Origin: Providencia rustigianii DSM 4541
GTDB taxonomy: Bacteria > Pseudomonadota > Gammaproteobacteria > Enterobacterales > Enterobacteriaceae
Length of the DNA: 64,000 nucleotides
Assembly: GCF_000156395.1 (NCBI RefSeq)
Contig: NZ_GG703819.1
Span: forward strand, 539,218-603,217
Direction of reading: 5' to 3'
Below are positions 43,537 through 51,671 of the stretch, one piece after another. Below the pieces are notes generated by a model. The model did not search any database. It was given only the letters and a program-made list of their open reading frames with translations, and had not been told where the DNA came from. The position numbers and the translations under genes are program-made. Position 1 is the stretch's first letter. The number at the start of each line of letters is the position of its first letter.

Positions 43537-45168
43537 TCAAATCAATGGTGGAATTTGGGGTAAGATAGGCACTTCAATGACCGTAGGTCCTTGGCGCTTA
43601 TAAGCCTCTTTGCAAGCTTGCTGAACTTCCTCAACCGTCGTGGCTTTCACTGCGGTACAGCCATAACCTTTACCCAGCGCGACAATATCTAAGTTAGGAA
43701 TATCCAAACCCGGTACACCTGGCGTTTCTTCTAAAACAGCGAAAGATTTTAAAATCGCGTACTCGCTATTTCGCGGGATCACAAACACAATGGGTAAATT
43801 ATGTTGTGCTGCGCTCCATAAACCCTGAATGGAATATTGCATCGAACCATCGCCGATAATCGATAATACAGGGCGATTTCTACCGCTATCCCTTTCTGCT
43901 AATGCAATACCCACACTTGCAGGTAAATTCCAGCCTAATGAACCGCTGGCAAAGGTATAGAAAGAATCAGGATGTTCAATAGGCCATTCACGATGTAGCT
44001 CCCCTAAGTTGGATGGTGATTCCTCAACTAAAACCGTTTCTTTCGGAGAAACTTCTCGCAATGCACGGAATAATTGAGCCGCACTCAAGGTGGTTGCGTT
44101 ATTTACGGTCTCTGGCGCGGCTGGATATGGCGCCATACCATGTGGCTGTTTCACCACCTTAGCTTGAGAAGCCGCTCTCGCTGACACCAACTGAGTTAAC
44201 CCTTCAACAGCTAATACTGCGTCACTTAGCATGCTGTCCCCAACAGGCGCTCTTCCTACCTCTATTGGATCATCCGTAATATGCAACAGGCGCAGCCCGT
44301 CCGGTAAATATTCACCCGCGACATAAGGGTAATAACGGAAAACAGGCGCGCCAATAATGAGCGCTAAATCATGTCCTTTTAACTTATCTGCTAAAGGTTG
44401 GATCGCAAAAGGTAAGCCACCAGCATAGAGCGGATGTGTTTCTGGGAATGGAGGGCGCTCTGATGCGGGTGCCGCCCAAACAGGGATATTCAATTTTTCT
44501 GCCAGAGCAATACCGGCATCCCACCCCTGCCCCCTAGCAATAGCAGAACCGTAGATTAATACCGGATTCTTAGCCTGTGATAAGACATCAGCAAAGGATT
44601 TTAAACGGATAGGATCATACCCTATACGCTCAGAAACGGTACGAACAACAGCAGCGTCCTTCTCGGCAGGTTTATCCCAATCATCAAGAGGAATTGAAAG
44701 AAATACAGGCCCCGCAGGTGGCTGTAATGCCATCGCATAAGCACGCATAAATGCGGCAGGGACATCTTCAGCTCGTGCTGGTTGATAACTCCATTTGACC
44801 CATGGCTTGGGTAAATTTTCTGGCTCTATGTTGGTTAACCAAGGTTCCATAAGTAACATTTCACGGGTTTGGTTTCCTGCCGTAATAATTAAAGGCGTAC
44901 GGTTCATATATGCCGTTAAAATATTACTCATCCCATTACTTAATCCCGCCGAGGTGTGCAAATTGACCATTGCGACTTTGCGCATGCCTTGGGCGTAACC
45001 ATCCGCAGCAGCTACCGCTGAGGCTTCGTGTAATGTCTGAATATAACGAAAATCACTCGGAAAATCTTTTAAAAATGTCTCTTCCGTCGAGCCCGGGTTA
45101 CCAAAAATTGTCGTGATATCTAGCTCACGTAATAGGTCAAAGGTTACTTGGCGAATGGTTTTCTTCAT
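43537..45168 (-). CDS. mdlC: ThDP-dependent decarboxylase, benzoylformate decarboxylase-like
   Basis: A 543-aa thiamine-diphosphate enzyme. It keeps Ser27 (GNPGSTEE), Glu48 (HEASAV) and His71 (NLHTSAG), equivalent to Ser26, Glu47 and His70 of Pseudomonas benzoylformate decarboxylase, and the cofactor motif GDGSMQYS. The second catalytic His (His281 in RYHQY) is Tyr280 here (RYYPY), and the NNGTYG segment reads PRNSEYAIL, so the substrate may not be benzoylformate. It is single, with no mandelate genes nearby; divergent from gltS across 679 bp. AGGGT precedes the ATG. Confidence 0.82.
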   Translation of the reverse strand: MKKTIRQVTFDLLRELDITTIFGNPGSTEETFLKDFPSDFRYIQTLHEASAVAAADGYAQGMRKVAMVNLHTSAGLSNGMSNILTAYMNRTPLIITAGNQTREMLLMEPWLTNIEPENLPKPWVKWSYQPARAEDVPAAFMRAYAMALQPPAGPVFLSIPLDDWDKPAEKDAAVVRTVSERIGYDPIRLKSFADVLSQAKNPVLIYGSAIARGQGWDAGIALAEKLNIPVWAAPASERPPFPETHPLYAGGLPFAIQPLADKLKGHDLALIIGAPVFRYYPYVAGEYLPDGLRLLHITDDPIEVGRAPVGDSMLSDAVLAVEGLTQLVSARAASQAKVVKQPHGMAPYPAAPETVNNATTLSAAQLFRALREVSPKETVLVEESPSNLGELHREWPIEHPDSFYTFASGSLGWNLPASVGIALAERDSGRNRPVLSIIGDGSMQYSIQGLWSAAQHNLPIVFVIPRNSEYAILKSFAVLEETPGVPGLDIPNLDIVALGKGYGCTAVKATTVEEVQQACKEAYKRQGPTVIEVPILPQIPPLI

Positions 45169-45718: not shown

Positions 45719-45737
45719 GTTAACTAAAAGTTATAGC
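45719..45737. promoter_or_regulatory. Shared motif, copy 1 (upstream of gltS)
   Basis: GTTAACTAAAAGTTATAGC. It shares GTTAA-N2-AAAAGTTA with copies at 45757 and 48108; it lies 111 bases before the gltS start. Candidate site for the LysR regulator at 47244. Confidence 0.5.
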
Positions 45738-45756
45738 ACCCCAAACAAAACTCATT

Positions 45757-45774
45757 GTTAAACAAAAGTTAAGC
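45757..45774. promoter_or_regulatory. Shared motif, copy 2 (upstream of gltS)
   Basis: GTTAAACAAAAGTTAAGC, 38 bases downstream of copy 1 and 74 bases before the gltS start, the two-site arrangement common for LysR activators. Confidence 0.5.
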
Positions 45775-45847
45775 AAAGTAATTTAATTTAAAACTAATGT
45801 TAAATCGCAAAAATGCACATTCTGGTAAACTAATGTGAGGTAAAATA

Positions 45848-47053
45848 ATGATTCTAGATGCCAGTTATACGCTATTATTTGCATGCTTAGCGCTGCTTAT
45901 TGGGATGATTTTTGTTAAATTCACCCCCTTTTTACAGAAAAATCATATTCCCGATGCAGTAGTCGGCGGTTTTATTGTTGCCATCGTATTGTTGATTGTT
46001 GATAAAACCGCGGGTTACAGTTTCTCATTTGATACCTCTCTACAGAGCACATTGATGATTGCATTCTTTTCATCAATTGGCTTGAGCTCAGATTTTGCTC
46101 GGCTGATAAAAGGCGGAAAACCGCTAGTTATTTTAACGTTAGCCGTCACTATTTTAATTGTTATTCAAAATGCCGTCGGTATGGGCATGGCTGTGATGCT
46201 CAATGAAAGTCCGTTTATTGGTCTGATTGCCGGCTCAATTACCTTAACTGGTGGTCATGGTAACGCTGGAGCATGGGGACCAATCTTGGCAGACAAATAT
46301 GGCGTAACTGGCGCTGTTGAACTTGCCATGGCATGTGCAACCATGGGGCTGGTATTAGGTGGTCTTGTCGGGGGACCAGTCGCCAGACACTTACTGAAAA
46401 AAGTCGCCATTCCAAAAGCGACAGAACAAGAAAAAGAGACAATTTTAGAAGCCTTTGAGCAGCCGAGCGTCAAGAGAAAGATCAATGCCAATAACATCAT
46501 TGAAACGATCTCTATGCTGATTATCTGTATCGTGGCAGGTAGCTATATCAGCGAATTAGTGAAAGACACACCACTTCACTTGCCGACTTTCGTTTGGTGT
46601 CTGTTTGTCGGTATTATTATCCGCAACGTACTGACACATATCTTTAAACACGAAGTTTTTGAACCAACCGTCGATGTCTTAGGCAGTGTGGCTTTATCAC
46701 TGTTCCTCGCTATCGCACTGATGTCTTTGAAATTTGGTCAATTAGCCAGTATGGCAGGCCCTGTTCTCATCATCATCGCGGTTCAGACTGTCGTCATGGT
46801 ATTGTTCGCTTGCTTTGTCACCTTTAAGATGATGGGGAGTGATTATGATGCCGTGGTCATCAGTGCGGGGCACTGTGGTTTTGGGATGGGGGCAACACCA
46901 ACCGCTATCGCTAACATGCAAACCATTACCCGAGCATTCAGCCCATCACATAAAGCATTCTTAGTCGTACCAATGGTTGGCGCATTCCTCGTCGATATTA
47001 CTAACAGTATCGTCATTAAATTATTTATCGAGCTGGGCGTCAGTATCGGATAA
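45848..47053 (+). CDS. gltS: Sodium/glutamate symporter GltS
   Basis: Na+-coupled glutamate uptake in the inner membrane. The 401-aa product shows the two inverted halves of GltS with GGHGNAGAWGP (about 136-146) and GHCGFGMGATPTAIANMQ (about 340-357), the conserved substrate-binding loops, and about ten membrane segments. GAGGT precedes the ATG. It is followed by its own terminator, then by a LysR gene and dadA-ridA, and it shares an upstream motif with dadA. Confidence 0.95.
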   Translation: MILDASYTLLFACLALLIGMIFVKFTPFLQKNHIPDAVVGGFIVAIVLLIVDKTAGYSFSFDTSLQSTLMIAFFSSIGLSSDFARLIKGGKPLVILTLAVTILIVIQNAVGMGMAVMLNESPFIGLIAGSITLTGGHGNAGAWGPILADKYGVTGAVELAMACATMGLVLGGLVGGPVARHLLKKVAIPKATEQEKETILEAFEQPSVKRKINANNIIETISMLIICIVAGSYISELVKDTPLHLPTFVWCLFVGIIIRNVLTHIFKHEVFEPTVDVLGSVALSLFLAIALMSLKFGQLASMAGPVLIIIAVQTVVMVLFACFVTFKMMGSDYDAVVISAGHCGFGMGATPTAIANMQTITRAFSPSHKAFLVVPMVGAFLVDITNSIVIKLFIELGVSIG

Positions 47054-47069
47054 ACCTCACTTACAAGAT

Positions 47070-47112
47070 ACTGGCTCATAACCAAAAGTATATGAGCCAG
47101 TGTTTTTATTTT
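47070..47112 (+). terminator. Terminator of gltS
   Basis: Stem ACTGGCTCATA / TATGAGCCAGT, 10-base loop, followed by GTTTTTATTTTT. Confidence 0.9.
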
Positions 47113-47243
47113 TGATATTTTTTCCTCATTATTTCCCCTTTAATCCCTATTTTCCTTATCTATAAGTGACCCCAATATCGGATTGATGACTTTTTTTCCG
47201 GTAAAATAGGAATAAATGCAAAGTACTGTTTAGGTTACTGATA

Positions 47244-48152
47244 ATGAAGTTAAGGCACCTTGATATTTTTTATGCCGTTATGACCTGTGGCTCACTCACT
47301 CGTGCTGCAGAGGTTTTACATATCTCCCAACCCGCAGCCAGCAAAGCATTAAAACATGCAGAACAACAACTCGGTTTAGTATTATTTCAGCGGATCCGAG
47401 GGAAATTAATCCCTACTGACGAAGCTAATTTATTATTTGAAGAGGCAAAAGAGGTTTATCAAAATCTAGATAGGCTCAGAATTTTGGCGCAAAATTTATC
47501 GCGTAATCCACAAGGTAAACTCGCGATTGGTTGTCTTCCTAGCCTAGGGTTAAACTTAGTCCCTGAAGTCACTGCGCTATTTATAAAAAAACATCCGAAT
47601 ATCAAACTGACCATTGGAACTCATCACACCACGGATATTCTGCAATTATTAACCCAACAAGATTTGGATATTGGAATTGCTTTCAATCTCGCGATTGAAG
47701 GCGGTATTACGGTGCTACCCGTTGCAGATATTCCGTTAGTGTATGTCGATAGCCAGCCCCCTACCCACTCCCCAGTTTCATTAATGGATATAGATCAAGA
47801 CCGTTGGATCCACCCCGGTTCAGACTCTCTATCTCAGCTATTACAGCAAGTTCATGAATTTGCAGAATCCAATATTAGTGTGCATACCTACCACATGGCA
47901 GCAGAATTTGTCCGAGCTGGCCTTGGATGCAGCATTACTGATATTTTTTCTGCCGAACATACGCTGCCAGAATCGATGATTTACCCACTCAAAGAAAATT
48001 TGCATCTGGCAGTATCAGTCTTTCATCGAGCAGACAGACCATTAACCAAAGCGGCACAAAATTATGTAAACACTTTGTCGTTAATACTAGAAAAACGCAA
48101 CGCAGTAGTTAACCAAAAGTTATACTCTAGTAATGAAAACTCAATTGTTTAG
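47244..48152 (+). CDS. LysR-family regulator between gltS and dadA
   Basis: A 302-aa LysR protein with winged helix RHLDIFYAVMTCGSLTRAAEVLHISQPAASKALKHAEQQLG (about residues 4-44). It resembles regulators of amino-acid catabolism such as DsdC or ArgP-type but I cannot name it. It lies between gltS and dadA on the same strand, and the motif GTTAA-N2-AAAAGTTA occurs upstream of both, which makes it the natural candidate controller. Copy 3 of that motif overlaps its last codons. Confidence 0.85.
   Translation: MKLRHLDIFYAVMTCGSLTRAAEVLHISQPAASKALKHAEQQLGLVLFQRIRGKLIPTDEANLLFEEAKEVYQNLDRLRILAQNLSRNPQGKLAIGCLPSLGLNLVPEVTALFIKKHPNIKLTIGTHHTTDILQLLTQQDLDIGIAFNLAIEGGITVLPVADIPLVYVDSQPPTHSPVSLMDIDQDRWIHPGSDSLSQLLQQVHEFAESNISVHTYHMAAEFVRAGLGCSITDIFSAEHTLPESMIYPLKENLHLAVSVFHRADRPLTKAAQNYVNTLSLILEKRNAVVNQKLYSSNENSIV
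48108..48127. promoter_or_regulatory. Shared motif, copy 3 (upstream of dadA)
   Basis: GTTAACCAAAAGTTATACTC, matching copy 1 in 14 of the first 15 bases and in nearly all flanking ones; 82 bases before the dadA start, inside the 3' end of the lysR gene. Confidence 0.5.
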
Positions 48153-48208
48153 TCTGACTATTCGCCGTTAAATGATAACTCCTTAGTTATTATTGGTTGC
48201 GGAATATT

Positions 48209-49450
48209 ATGGCTAAACATGTGGTGGTTATTGGTGCCGGTGTTATTGGATTAAGTACCGCCTATGCTTTAATAAAAGCGGGTCAGACAGTCACATTAAT
48301 TGAATCTGATTCAGATGTTGGCATGCAAACAAGTTTTGCCAATGGTGGACAGCTGAGCTATCGCTATGTTTCGCCTCTTGCCGATGCAGGTGTGCCATTA
48401 CAGGGTTTGCGTTGGATGGGGAAAAATGACTCTCCATTAAATTTGAGGATCAATTTTTCCCTTGAGCAACTGACTTGGCTGGCTCAATTTACCTTAGCTT
48501 GTACTCGCGCAACCAATAAAATCAATGGTGATCATTTATTGAGATTGTCCTTATTAAGCCAAAATATCATGAATACTTGGCGTACAAGTGGAGATATTGC
48601 TGATTTTGCTTGGGAGAAATCAGGAAAATTAATTATCCACCGCGAGCGGTCTAGCTTTAAAAAAGCCAGTGAAACCATTGATAAAGAATTCCAAAAAATA
48701 CTCACAACCCAAGAGATTATTGAATTAGAACCTGCTCTGGCAAATATCCAATCACAATTGGTTGGCGCAATCTATGCCCCAAGTGATGAAACCGCAGACT
48801 GTTATTTATTCTGCAAAAATATTTTGGCATATTTATCTACCCAACCCACCTTTAAGTTATGTTTAGAACACTCCGTGAAATCTTTTATTCAAGTGAATAA
48901 CCAAATTACGGCGGTTGAAACGACTCAAGGAACAATTCAAGCCGATGATGTGATTGTCTGTGCTGGAAATGGGAGCCGTGAATTACTGAAACCACTGGGT
49001 ATCGATGTACCAATTTTAGGGTTAAAAGGGTATAGCTTAAGCGTGGAATACCCTCAGGCTGAGCATATCGTTCCGAAAGTGAGTGTTACCGATTACGGTA
49101 ACAAAATCGTATATGCCAAGCTCAATGACCAATTACGGATTGCCGCAATGGTCGATATTGGCTACGACAAATTAGGGTTACGGGAAAATAGAGTATCTGC
49201 CTTAAAAAATATTATTAGAAAAACATTCCCGAACTTACCAAAAATTGATGAAGCAGAAGCATGGTGCGGTTTACGTCCGTCAACACCAAAGGGACCGCCA
49301 ATATTAGGCAAAACAACATACCGCAATTTATGGTTAAACGTGGGTCATGGCAGTTTAGGTTTTACATTAGCTGCAGGGAGCGCTGAAATATTAAGCCAAT
49401 TAATTACCCAGCAACAATCACCCATTTCTTTAGAAGGATTAACGAGGTAA
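48209..49450 (+). CDS. dadA: D-amino-acid dehydrogenase-like FAD oxidoreductase
   Basis: A 413-aa DAO-fold flavoprotein: VVVIGAGVIGLSTAYALIKAG (FAD site, about residues 5-25), FANGGQLSYRYVSPLADAG typical of DadA, WCGLRPSTPKGPPILG and the C-terminal LWLNVGHGSLGFTLAAGSAEIL. It oxidises D-amino acids to 2-imino/keto acids and passes electrons to the respiratory chain. ATG 48209 follows GCGGA; an upstream TTG is less likely. ridA follows at 3 bp spacing, expected to remove the imine product. No alr/dadX racemase is adjacent. Confidence 0.88.
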   Translation: MAKHVVVIGAGVIGLSTAYALIKAGQTVTLIESDSDVGMQTSFANGGQLSYRYVSPLADAGVPLQGLRWMGKNDSPLNLRINFSLEQLTWLAQFTLACTRATNKINGDHLLRLSLLSQNIMNTWRTSGDIADFAWEKSGKLIIHRERSSFKKASETIDKEFQKILTTQEIIELEPALANIQSQLVGAIYAPSDETADCYLFCKNILAYLSTQPTFKLCLEHSVKSFIQVNNQITAVETTQGTIQADDVIVCAGNGSRELLKPLGIDVPILGLKGYSLSVEYPQAEHIVPKVSVTDYGNKIVYAKLNDQLRIAAMVDIGYDKLGLRENRVSALKNIIRKTFPNLPKIDEAEAWCGLRPSTPKGPPILGKTTYRNLWLNVGHGSLGFTLAAGSAEILSQLITQQQSPISLEGLTR

Positions 49451-49453
49451 TTT

Positions 49454-49807
49454 ATGTCCATTAAACGTAACAACCCAAAACCGCGCTTAGCTGATAGCGT
49501 TGAATATGCTGGATTAGTTTATTTATCAGGGCAAGTGCCGACTAATTTATCGGGTGATATTACCGCTCAAACTCAAGAAGTCTTAGATAAAATTGATGCT
49601 TTATTAGCCGCAAGTCATAGCGATAAAACACGTATTTTATCGGCACAAGTCTGGATTAAAGATATGTCTCGTGACTTCGCACCATTTAATCACGTTTGGG
49701 AAGCTTGGATGCCTGCTGAATTCAGCCCCGCCCGTGCAGCAGTAGAAGCCAATATGGCAAGAGATCAGGTTCTTGTCGAAATTATGGTGATCGCTGCTCA
49801 GCGTTAA
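49454..49807 (+). CDS. RidA-family enamine/imine deaminase
   Basis: A 117-aa YjgF/YER057c/UK114 (RidA) protein with GLVYLSGQVPTN, RILSAQVWIKDMSRDFAPFNHVWEAWMP and the substrate-binding Arg in SPARAAVEANMA. It hydrolyses reactive enamine/imine intermediates released by amino-acid oxidases and lyases. The stop-to-start gap from dadA is 3 bp with AACGAGG upstream, so the two are cotranscribed and act in sequence. Confidence 0.9.
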   Translation: MSIKRNNPKPRLADSVEYAGLVYLSGQVPTNLSGDITAQTQEVLDKIDALLAASHSDKTRILSAQVWIKDMSRDFAPFNHVWEAWMPAEFSPARAAVEANMARDQVLVEIMVIAAQR

Positions 49808-50030: not shown

Positions 50031-51671
50031 ATGACTAAAACCGTCATTGAACATATTTTAACGCGATTACAAGACATAGGAATTACGGATATATTTGGTG
50101 TTGCGGGTGATTATGCCTTCCCCATCAATGATGCTATTTGTAAAAATAATACTCTGCGCTGGGTAGGAAACTGCAATGAGCTCAATGCCGCTTATGCTGC
50201 AGATGGCTACGCACGCATAAAAGACGTCGCTGCATTAGCCACGACATTTGCTGTTGGTGAGCTTAGCGCACTTAATGGGATTGCAGGGGCTTATGCTGAA
50301 CAACTACCTATTTTTCATTTAGTTGGCATGCCTGCGAGTCATATTCAGCATGGTAAATATCTCGTTCATCATACGCTAGGTAATGGTGATTTTGAGGTTT
50401 TTTACCGAATCGCTCAATCCCTATCCTGTGCCCATACCATTATTACCCCCGAAAATTGCATTGATGAAATAGAAAGATTAATCACCCATGCGTTATCTGA
50501 GCGTCGCCCAGTTTATATAGGGCTACCCGCAGATTACGCCAAGCAAACCATCGTTCCACAAAAAAAAGTCCCCATATCGCTTCCAGAAAGTTGCCCAAAT
50601 ACTCTGAGAAAAGTCATTAATTTAATCGCCAATAGGCTGACATGCAGTGAGTGTTCTTGCGCACTTATTGGTTCAATGGTTTCCCGCTTTGAATTAGTCA
50701 AAGATGTAGAAACTATTATCAAAGTTACCAATCTTCCTTATGCGACTATGTTTATGGATAAAGGTGTTTTGAATGAAACCAATAGCCAATATATCGGTGT
50801 TTATAATGGAAGATTGATGAACCTTGAGGTCGCTAATTTTGTTGAAAGCTGTGAGTGCGTTTTAAATATCGGTGCTTTAATGAGTGATGTTAATACGGGT
50901 TGCTTTACCGCAAATCTTTCTCCTGAAAATCACATTCAGATATTGGCAGATCACGTTATTATTGACTCAGTTATTTACCCACATATTTATATTTATGAAT
51001 TGCTTTCGGAACTCAAAGATATTCTGACATTTATTCCGAATAATGCTTTAAAAGCCTACGGGTTGGGTGTTCCTCAAGCGGATGAAACAGGGAAAATTAC
51101 CCGTTCCTATTTGTACCCTAGACTCGAAAAATTCTTCAAGCAAAACGACATTATTATTGCTGAAACAGGTACATTTTCCATGGGATTAGGCTTTGCGCTG
51201 TTACCTAAAGAAGTTTCTTTTCAAACTCAATCACTGTGGGGTTCCATTGGCTGGGCAACTCCCGCAGCTTTAGGTGCTGCAATTGCCGCTCCACATCGCA
51301 GGGTAATTTTAGCGACTGGTGACGGAGCACATCAGCTTACGGTGCAAGAAATCAGCCAGTTTGTGCGCTGGGGTTTAAAACCGATTATTTTTGTTCTCAA
51401 TAATGATGGCTATTTAATCGAGCGTCTATTTTGTAAAAATCCTGAGTATATTTATAACGATATCCCTCACTGGAATTATGCTCAACTTCCTGCTGCTTTT
51501 GGATGCCACGATTGGCTTTGTAAAAAAATCACGCTTTGTGAAGAACTTGAAATGGTACTAGAGGAAATAGAATCCAAAGATTGTGCTGCCTATATTGAAA
51601 TCATAACTCATCGCTATGAATCATCAGAACTTCTGCAAAAAATGGGTGAAATTATTCGAGCAGAGCAATAA
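50031..51671 (+). CDS. Indolepyruvate/2-keto-acid decarboxylase (copy 1)
   Basis: A 546-aa ThDP enzyme of the IpdC/pyruvate decarboxylase family: catalytic Glu in GNCNELNAAYAADGYAR, the His pair in VHHTLGNG, and the cofactor motif GDGAHQLT...NNDGYLIE. It turns 2-keto acids such as indolepyruvate or phenylpyruvate into aldehydes. ATG 50031 is preceded by GGAGA. It follows dadA-ridA, which makes keto acids, but a hairpin separates them. It is a clear paralogue of the gene at 52987. Confidence 0.85.
   Translation: MTKTVIEHILTRLQDIGITDIFGVAGDYAFPINDAICKNNTLRWVGNCNELNAAYAADGYARIKDVAALATTFAVGELSALNGIAGAYAEQLPIFHLVGMPASHIQHGKYLVHHTLGNGDFEVFYRIAQSLSCAHTIITPENCIDEIERLITHALSERRPVYIGLPADYAKQTIVPQKKVPISLPESCPNTLRKVINLIANRLTCSECSCALIGSMVSRFELVKDVETIIKVTNLPYATMFMDKGVLNETNSQYIGVYNGRLMNLEVANFVESCECVLNIGALMSDVNTGCFTANLSPENHIQILADHVIIDSVIYPHIYIYELLSELKDILTFIPNNALKAYGLGVPQADETGKITRSYLYPRLEKFFKQNDIIIAETGTFSMGLGFALLPKEVSFQTQSLWGSIGWATPAALGAAIAAPHRRVILATGDGAHQLTVQEISQFVRWGLKPIIFVLNNDGYLIERLFCKNPEYIYNDIPHWNYAQLPAAFGCHDWLCKKITLCEELEMVLEEIESKDCAAYIEIITHRYESSELLQKMGEIIRAEQ

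Follow-up and report, generated by a model that had tools for sequence, protein, structure and literature searches.

Introduction

In Serratia plymuthica the andrimid cluster is reported to be under the control of AdmX (PDB 7qej/7qek), which is described as an auxin-responsive regulator of the LysR type; the promoter that AdmX reportedly binds and activates overlaps the 3' end of the admX gene itself (PMC6265452, PMC9973260). Binding of auxin is reportedly abolished in the variant C215Y and weakened 3.4- to 4.9-fold in the variant C100S, and a Klebsiella homologue, AdmX_Kleb, which is 79.3% identical over the ligand domain, is reported to bind neither auxin (PMC9973260). Here we analyzed a stretch of 64,000 nucleotides from Providencia rustigianii DSM 4541 (the window; contig NZ_GG703819.1, positions C33:539218-603217 of the 3.98-Mb genome G000), in which a gene for an AdmX-like regulator (lysR) lies between a gltS paralogue and the genes dadA and ridA, and we describe a composite DNA element that is located upstream of both gltS and dadA. 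We put the probability at about 0.8 that this LysR protein is an AdmX-family activator of gltS and dadA-ridA that acts through the composite element as its operator, at a position near -65. Sequence matches, conservation, co-occurrence and selection at the DNA level were computed; protein binding, promoter positions, activation and the role of D-glutamate are what we infer.

The second system resembling the locus is dguRABC, the D-glutamate and D-glutamine utilization locus of Pseudomonas aeruginosa, which was reportedly described by He et al. in 2014 and is said to combine genes for a LysR regulator, a dehydrogenase for D-amino acids and a Rid protein. The window is alike in that the three genes are found together, and its Rid protein ranks among those closest to PA5083, which we take to be the DguB protein of the P. 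aeruginosa locus. The window differs in the additional GltS paralogue, and no porin gene was found among the window genes examined.

Results and Discussion

A composite element precedes gltS and dadA

A first-pass annotation of the window had reported a 15-bp motif with similar flanks twice upstream of gltS and once upstream of dadA, and had proposed an operator uniting glutamate uptake with D-amino acid oxidation under the LysR protein encoded at 47244. All three 15-mers are present on the plus strand where the annotation had placed them: site 1 at 45719-45733, site 2 at 45757-45771 and site 3 at 48108-48122. The distances of 111, 74 and 82 bases need correction, being 114 bp (site 1) and 76 bp (site 2) to the gltS start codon ATG at 45848, and 86 bp from site 3 to the dadA ATG at 48209. 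Exact matches to GTTAAMNAAAAGTTA occur in the genome at sites 1-3 only. When one mismatch was allowed, 10 matches were found for the 15-mer (the three exact ones included) versus 19 for the reversed control pattern, and GTTAACYAAAAGTTA had at least one match in 127 of 198 genomes of the family; the 15-mer alone was therefore discarded as a regulon finder because it is unspecific. In the genome-wide motif count that had been suggested as a check, the frequency of the 15-mer at one mismatch is thus ordinary.

Alignment of sites 1 and 3 showed that GTTATA is followed by G or C, ten free bases and AAAACTCA, with identical spacing at both sites. The composite element, TAAC-N5-GTTATA-S-N10-AAAASTCA, has 0 mismatches at sites 1 and 3, so that the similar flanks of the annotation become an element of fixed spacing at these two sites; site 2 does not carry it. 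A genome-wide pattern search detected no occurrence within one mismatch besides sites 1 and 3 and hence no further regulon members in G000 at this limit. The single match with two mismatches (C35:952497) is within the range of the control, since the reversed pattern has three matches at two mismatches in this genome. Going by these counts, the signal beyond chance is the longer shared element rather than the 15-mer.

The predicted composite operator of gltS spans 45719-45754 on the plus strand and consists of site 1, GTTAACTAAAAGTTA (45719-45733), and TAG-N10-AAAACTCA. The predicted composite operator of the dadA promoter spans 48108-48143 on the plus strand and is not intergenic but located in the 3' end of lysR, where site 3 is read in frame as GTT AAC CAA AAG TTA (VNQKL). 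Site 2 (GTTAAACAAAAGTTA, plus strand, 38 bp downstream of site 1) is a partial copy of the repeat without the composite flank and overlaps the putative gltS core promoter at its -35 and spacer. It fits T-N11-A but begins with TAAA, not TAAC, and is a weaker, different site.

The element co-occurs with the LysR protein

The composite element was counted within one mismatch in a set of 24 Providencia genomes, G000 included, and in a draw of 392 genomes of the family, which shares five Providencia genomes with that set and in which the LysR protein was detected at E<=1e-50. The LysR protein is encoded in 21 of the 24 Providencia genomes (split in two in G216 and interrupted by an in-frame stop in G210). 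Each of these 21 genomes contains two composite elements, and the three others contain none. Phylogenetic footprinting of both promoters, likewise suggested in the annotation, bears out its proposal: in all 21 pairs one element is kept before gltS, mostly at a distance of about 93 bp (203 bp in G211), and one before dadA, mostly at 65 bp (165 bp in G208). The other 15 composite matches in the 24 genomes all have two mismatches; the reversed control yields 41 at two mismatches.

In the family draw the LysR protein was found in 15 genomes and the element in 18, and all 15 genomes with LysR have exactly two elements; the reversed control gave 6 matches in 6 genomes, one of them G000. The three extra genomes contain a single element each. 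In G074 (L177 2634-5700) dadA, ridA and their operator are kept, whereas lysR and the divergent transporter gene have both lost their 5' parts, which marks it as a deletion remnant of the locus; the one-mismatch matches in G003 and G170 look like chance. In a search reaching beyond the family, the LysR protein was found at E<=1e-55 in one of 369 genomes of the class, and this one is G000 itself.

A different regulator, encoded elsewhere in the genome, might use the element. We regard this as quite improbable, since, among the searched genomes, the element pair is confined to those with this LysR protein and to its locus, the three Providencia genomes without LysR have neither site, and AdmX is reported to bind a region that includes the same kind of place.

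In the assembly of Providencia stuartii NCTC11800 (G216; L099/L020) lysR and dadA each match as two overlapping pieces, and both genes look frameshifted.

Synonymous sites within the lysR operator codons

The dadA operator lies within the coding sequence of lysR, and synonymous variation was analyzed there. The input was 22 lysR genes (20 from Providencia loci and two from Xenorhabdus, without the broken gene of G216), from which 21 full-length unique genes were used, L075 (290 aa) being left out. Synonymous diversity was computed from the rows in which the commonest residue is retained, and 284 codon windows of the same shape were ranked. The 11 operator codons show a synonymous diversity of 0 versus a gene mean of 0.445, which is rank 1 of 284, and amino acid changes are found once each in three of the 11 codons. 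In a second lineage (11 genes, see below) the value is 0.091 for the operator codons versus a gene mean of 0.405, also rank 1 of 284, and only the N5 spacer and the last codon vary synonymously within them. This test rules out that site 3 is conserved through constraint on the protein, and it shows selection at the DNA level within lysR in both lineages. With the element pairs found in 21 of 21 and 15 of 15 genomes, the proposal of an operator uniting gltS and dadA under the LysR protein of 47244 is strongly supported by sequence comparison.

Repeats that arose by chance or by recent duplication in AT-rich DNA and have no function would agree with how common the 15-mer is at one mismatch; the fixed spacing of the composite element, its perfect co-occurrence with LysR and a synonymous variation that is the lowest within lysR in both lineages make this extremely improbable.

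In G210 (L075) codon 291 of lysR is changed from CAA to TAA within the operator; the LysR protein is 290 aa long, 12 residues shorter, and TAACTAAAAGTTATAC is kept.

A second lineage in Klebsiella and related genera

Ten genomes of the family draw, from four genera other than Providencia, encode a LysR protein with 47-50% identity; over the first 65 residues the window and the Klebsiella LysR share 51 identities. All ten have lysR followed by dadA and ridA, and in all ten one element is located 63-68 bp before dadA and the other 193-236 bp before a divergent transporter gene, the internal spacing of the element being identical to that in Providencia. GltS was not found in the 8.7-10 kb around the locus in any of the ten. 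Klebsiella pneumoniae CP125156.1 has the order btuC, transporter, lysR, (dadA), ridA, ihfA with both elements present; its gene table is incomplete, and dadA is not among the entries. The transporter of this lineage has 477 aa and is annotated as gluconate:proton symporter in CP125156.1. It belongs to no Pfam or NCBIfam family at E<=0.001 (a loose limit gives weak DctM and GntP matches), has no meaningful match among solved structures and shows no detectable similarity to GltS (E 0.71). The same operator thus stands before two transporters without detectable similarity. The loci of this lineage are thus like the window in the regulator family, in both enzymes and in having the composite operator twice, and they differ in a transporter that shows no detectable similarity to GltS and whose gene is divergent from lysR, which is read in the direction of dadA-ridA.

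Genes of the locus

The gltS gene (45848-47053, plus strand) encodes a GltS paralogue of 401 aa from the sodium/glutamate symporter family (TIGR00210, 517.3 bits, cutoff 310.75; PF03616). The lysR gene (47244-48152, plus strand) encodes a regulator of 302 aa, in which the helix-turn-helix domain (PF00126, 69.6 bits) and the substrate-binding domain (PF03466, 92.2 bits) are both present. It is followed by a dadA-like gene for a flavin adenine dinucleotide (FAD)-dependent D-amino acid dehydrogenase (48209-49450, plus strand; NF001933, 408.8 bits, cutoff 383) and by a gene for a Rid-family imine deaminase, which is Rid2-like (49454-49807, plus strand; PF01042). Elsewhere G000 encodes another DadA that scores 717.3 bits with the NF001933 profile, which we take as the canonical DadA, the locus dadA being its paralogue, and two further GltS proteins with 53% and 36% identity to the locus GltS. 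Because of this second DadA and the two additional GltS proteins, gltS and dadA of the locus are a dedicated paralogue set. In the three Providencia genomes without LysR no GltS exceeds 53% identity to the locus GltS.

At residues ~135-143, presumably a pore loop, the locus GltS reads GGHGNAGAW versus GGHGTGAAW in E. coli GltS and in the second Providencia GltS, a difference that may change specificity. Genes for thiamine diphosphate-dependent decarboxylases are located on both sides of the locus, a benzoylformate-decarboxylase-like gene at 43537-45168 (minus strand) and an indolepyruvate-decarboxylase-like gene at 50031-51671 (plus strand), and each of them is missing beside the locus in several relatives.

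Comparison with AdmX

The closest solved homologue of the LysR protein is AdmX (E=4e-48 over residues 69-294), and both belong to the same LysR subfamily. AdmX is reported to bind the promoter in the 3' end of its gene, and the window lysR has the conserved predicted operator at this place. In contrast to the window protein, AdmX governs antibiotic synthesis and binds auxin with Cys100 and Cys215; the corresponding residues of the window LysR are Ser100 and Tyr216. Eight putative LysR boxes, not a composite operator, are mentioned in the parts of the AdmX papers available to us (PMC6265452, PMC9973260).

Auxin sensing by the window LysR is not expected because Ser and Tyr occupy the positions of the auxin-binding cysteines. 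A sensor of auxin or indole-pyruvate like AdmX would tie the locus to the adjacent indolepyruvate-decarboxylase-like gene at 50031, and the presence of this gene and AdmX as the best solved homologue would fit such a role. The exchanges C215Y and C100S are reported to harm auxin binding by AdmX, however, and no such decarboxylase-like gene was found next to the locus in L013, L014, L017 and L018 or in the eight stretches L091-L098 of the second lineage. We consider this role very improbable, and as a candidate it was ruled out on residues Ser100 and Tyr216.

Proposed promoter architecture and mechanism

A putative gltS core promoter is located at 45755-45784 on the plus strand (TTGTTA at 45755-45760, 18 bp, TAATTT at 45779-45784), and a putative dadA core promoter at 48145-48173 on the plus strand (TTGTTT at 48145-48150, 17 bp, TTAAAT at 48168-48173); both were deduced from the sequence. 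If these are the core hexamers, TAAC-N5-GTTA, the T-N11-A dyad box present at sites 1 and 3, is centred at about -65 at both promoters. LysR-type activators have a box near -65. In the second lineage (row L086) the AATTTAAT block before the transporter is one base off its position before gltS of the window.

In the mechanism that we propose, the LysR protein of 47244-48152 would activate two transcription units, gltS and dadA-ridA. The composite operator would comprise the LysR recognition box TAAC-N5-GTTA (T-N11-A), centred at about -65, and a second part, AAAACTCA/AAAAGTCA, at fixed spacing and adjoining the -35. The partial second box at gltS (site 2), which overlaps the core promoter, would probably be a secondary contact, and the dadA operator would be written into the last lysR codons. 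The inducer would be an amino acid, D-glutamate or a closely related one being the most likely. An induced cell would make the GltS paralogue as a dedicated importer, together with the D-amino acid dehydrogenase and the Rid deaminase, the latter clearing the imine to 2-oxoacid and ammonia. As judged by its predicted sites, the locus is a classical LysR regulon with a real, conserved operator pair.

The candidate substrate

The Rid protein has PSPTO_0102 and PA5083 as its best solved matches, both of which are assigned to Rid2 in a published classification (PMC5619798). With PA5083 as query the Klebsiella Rid protein shows 62.3% identity. Among the 25 best rows from 610 plasmid records no P. 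aeruginosa-like dguB with more than 62.3% identity was found, and no band above 60-80%; with PA5083 as query, none of 369 class genomes had a match at E<=1e-30, which shows nothing by itself. Raoultella is reported to grow better on D- than on L-glutamate with raised expression of a dadA, which may or may not be the dadA of the locus (PMC6131576). A literature search combining D-glutamate, D-amino acid dehydrogenase, LysR and RidA returned no paper on such a locus by title. We rate the chance that D-glutamate or a near relative is the substrate and signal as slightly better than even. Of the glutamate uptake named in the annotation, the GltS-family transporter stands, and the substrate may be D-glutamate.

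Several observations weigh against the proposed regulation or against D-glutamate. Site 2 is only partly conserved, and its middle positions differ in relatives, e.g. GTTAAATATTAGTTA in L019. The -10 of the dadA promoter of the second lineage could not be placed from the sequence, and at one of the two Xenorhabdus loci (L017) no Rid gene was seen beside the locus in the stretch examined. D-glutamate is presumably contained in Biolog plate PM3B, and a screen without ligand that included this plate counts against it as a strong ligand of the isolated AdmX_Kleb domain. This thermal-shift screen covered plates PM1, PM2A, PM3B, PM4A and PM5, and no ligand is reported from it (PMC9973260). In a D-glutamate-importing E. 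coli strain GltS is reported to be changed at codons 163 and 355 (PMC12502697); in our alignment the locus GltS has the wild-type Ala at both positions.

These points bear on a reading in which the element works as proposed and the compound that is sensed and oxidized is a different D-amino acid or stems from the cell wall. The AdmX_Kleb screen without ligand, the breadth of the enzyme family and a GltS that lacks the substitutions of the D-glutamate-importing strain and carries the loop GGHGNAGAW instead of GGHGTGAAW would agree with it; that a GltS-family transporter is paired with a dehydrogenase and with a Rid protein whose close matches are PSPTO_0102 and PA5083 (DguB of the D-glutamate locus) argues for D-glutamate instead. 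We judge an inducer and substrate other than D-glutamate to be plausible, at somewhat less than even odds.

The Klebsiella member of the AdmX family reportedly binds neither auxin nor any compound of the plate screen (PMC9973260). The operator would link the family to a dehydrogenase for D-amino acids, to a Rid deaminase and to a transporter that differs between lineages, and this yields a short list of candidate ligands and two promoters. One operator is retained before two transporters without detectable similarity, and a promoter inside the regulator gene would be the source of selection at synonymous sites. We tentatively suggest, without giving it even odds, that the AdmX family ancestrally regulates scavenging of the D-glutamate type from a dadA promoter written into the final codons of its own gene. 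Between lineages, the transporter controlled by the second operator would have been exchanged (the GltS paralogue in Providencia and Xenorhabdus, an unrelated one in Klebsiella and its relatives). In Serratia the promoter in the 3' end of the regulator gene would have been taken over by the andrimid cluster, with the ligand pocket turned to auxin.

Relation to the passenger DNA of Tn10

The locus gltS, its operators and the first 40 or 41 lysR codons are also carried by loci L021-L028. On plasmid R100, which we take to be a classical Tn10 carrier, tetC, tet(B), tetR and this gltS are located between two transposase genes of the ISVsa5 family, ISVsa5 presumably being a synonym of IS10. The interior of the R100 element (L175 1335-7823) is 99.7% identical to the chromosome of P. 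stuartii NCTC11800 (L020 1-6122, L176 10946-14001, L099 1-3436), and the counterpart of this passenger DNA in the window is 45720-47365. Beyond the right end of the passenger the NCTC11800 chromosome continues with the rest of lysR-dadA-ridA, and beyond the left end with a stretch for a GyrI-like domain, in which the AraC-type gene is carried on. In R100 both genes end early, lysR near codon 41, where TGCTGAGCA adjoins the IS end, and the TetD gene at residue 138. We take TGCTGAGCA at the right junction to be the IS10 target consensus; this consensus was not found at the left junction of the R100 element.

In Providencia vermicola P8538 (G218) the same stretch is present with about 81% identity in the R100-aligned blocks and is collinear with P. 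stuartii on both sides; here tetC and the efflux gene are separated by an MdlC-like gene, and the gene that is truncated as TetD is intact, with 310 aa. In NCTC11800 the TetD-like gene is itself interrupted. Because of the 99.7% match, the truncated genes at both ends and the collinear sister copy with its flanks, the passenger DNA of Tn10 seems, from these alignments, to be Providencia chromosome framed by two IS copies. No paper on the Tn10 passenger as Providencia chromosome was found by title or abstract, which is no proof of novelty. The gltS operator of R100 has one mismatch to the composite pattern. If the ancestral role tentatively suggested above for the AdmX family is true, Klebsiella cells that host Tn10 would possess a regulator of their own that could act on the operators before the gltS of Tn10.

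Among complete E. coli genomes the query L020 4300-6150, which covers gltS of the Tn10 type with the operators and the beginning of lysR, matches in 409 of 5,426, in 357 of them over at least 80% of the query, and lysR is present in the matching genomes as a stub of about 41 codons only. Just left of the tet region P. stuartii has another Rid-family gene (L176 9938-10342).

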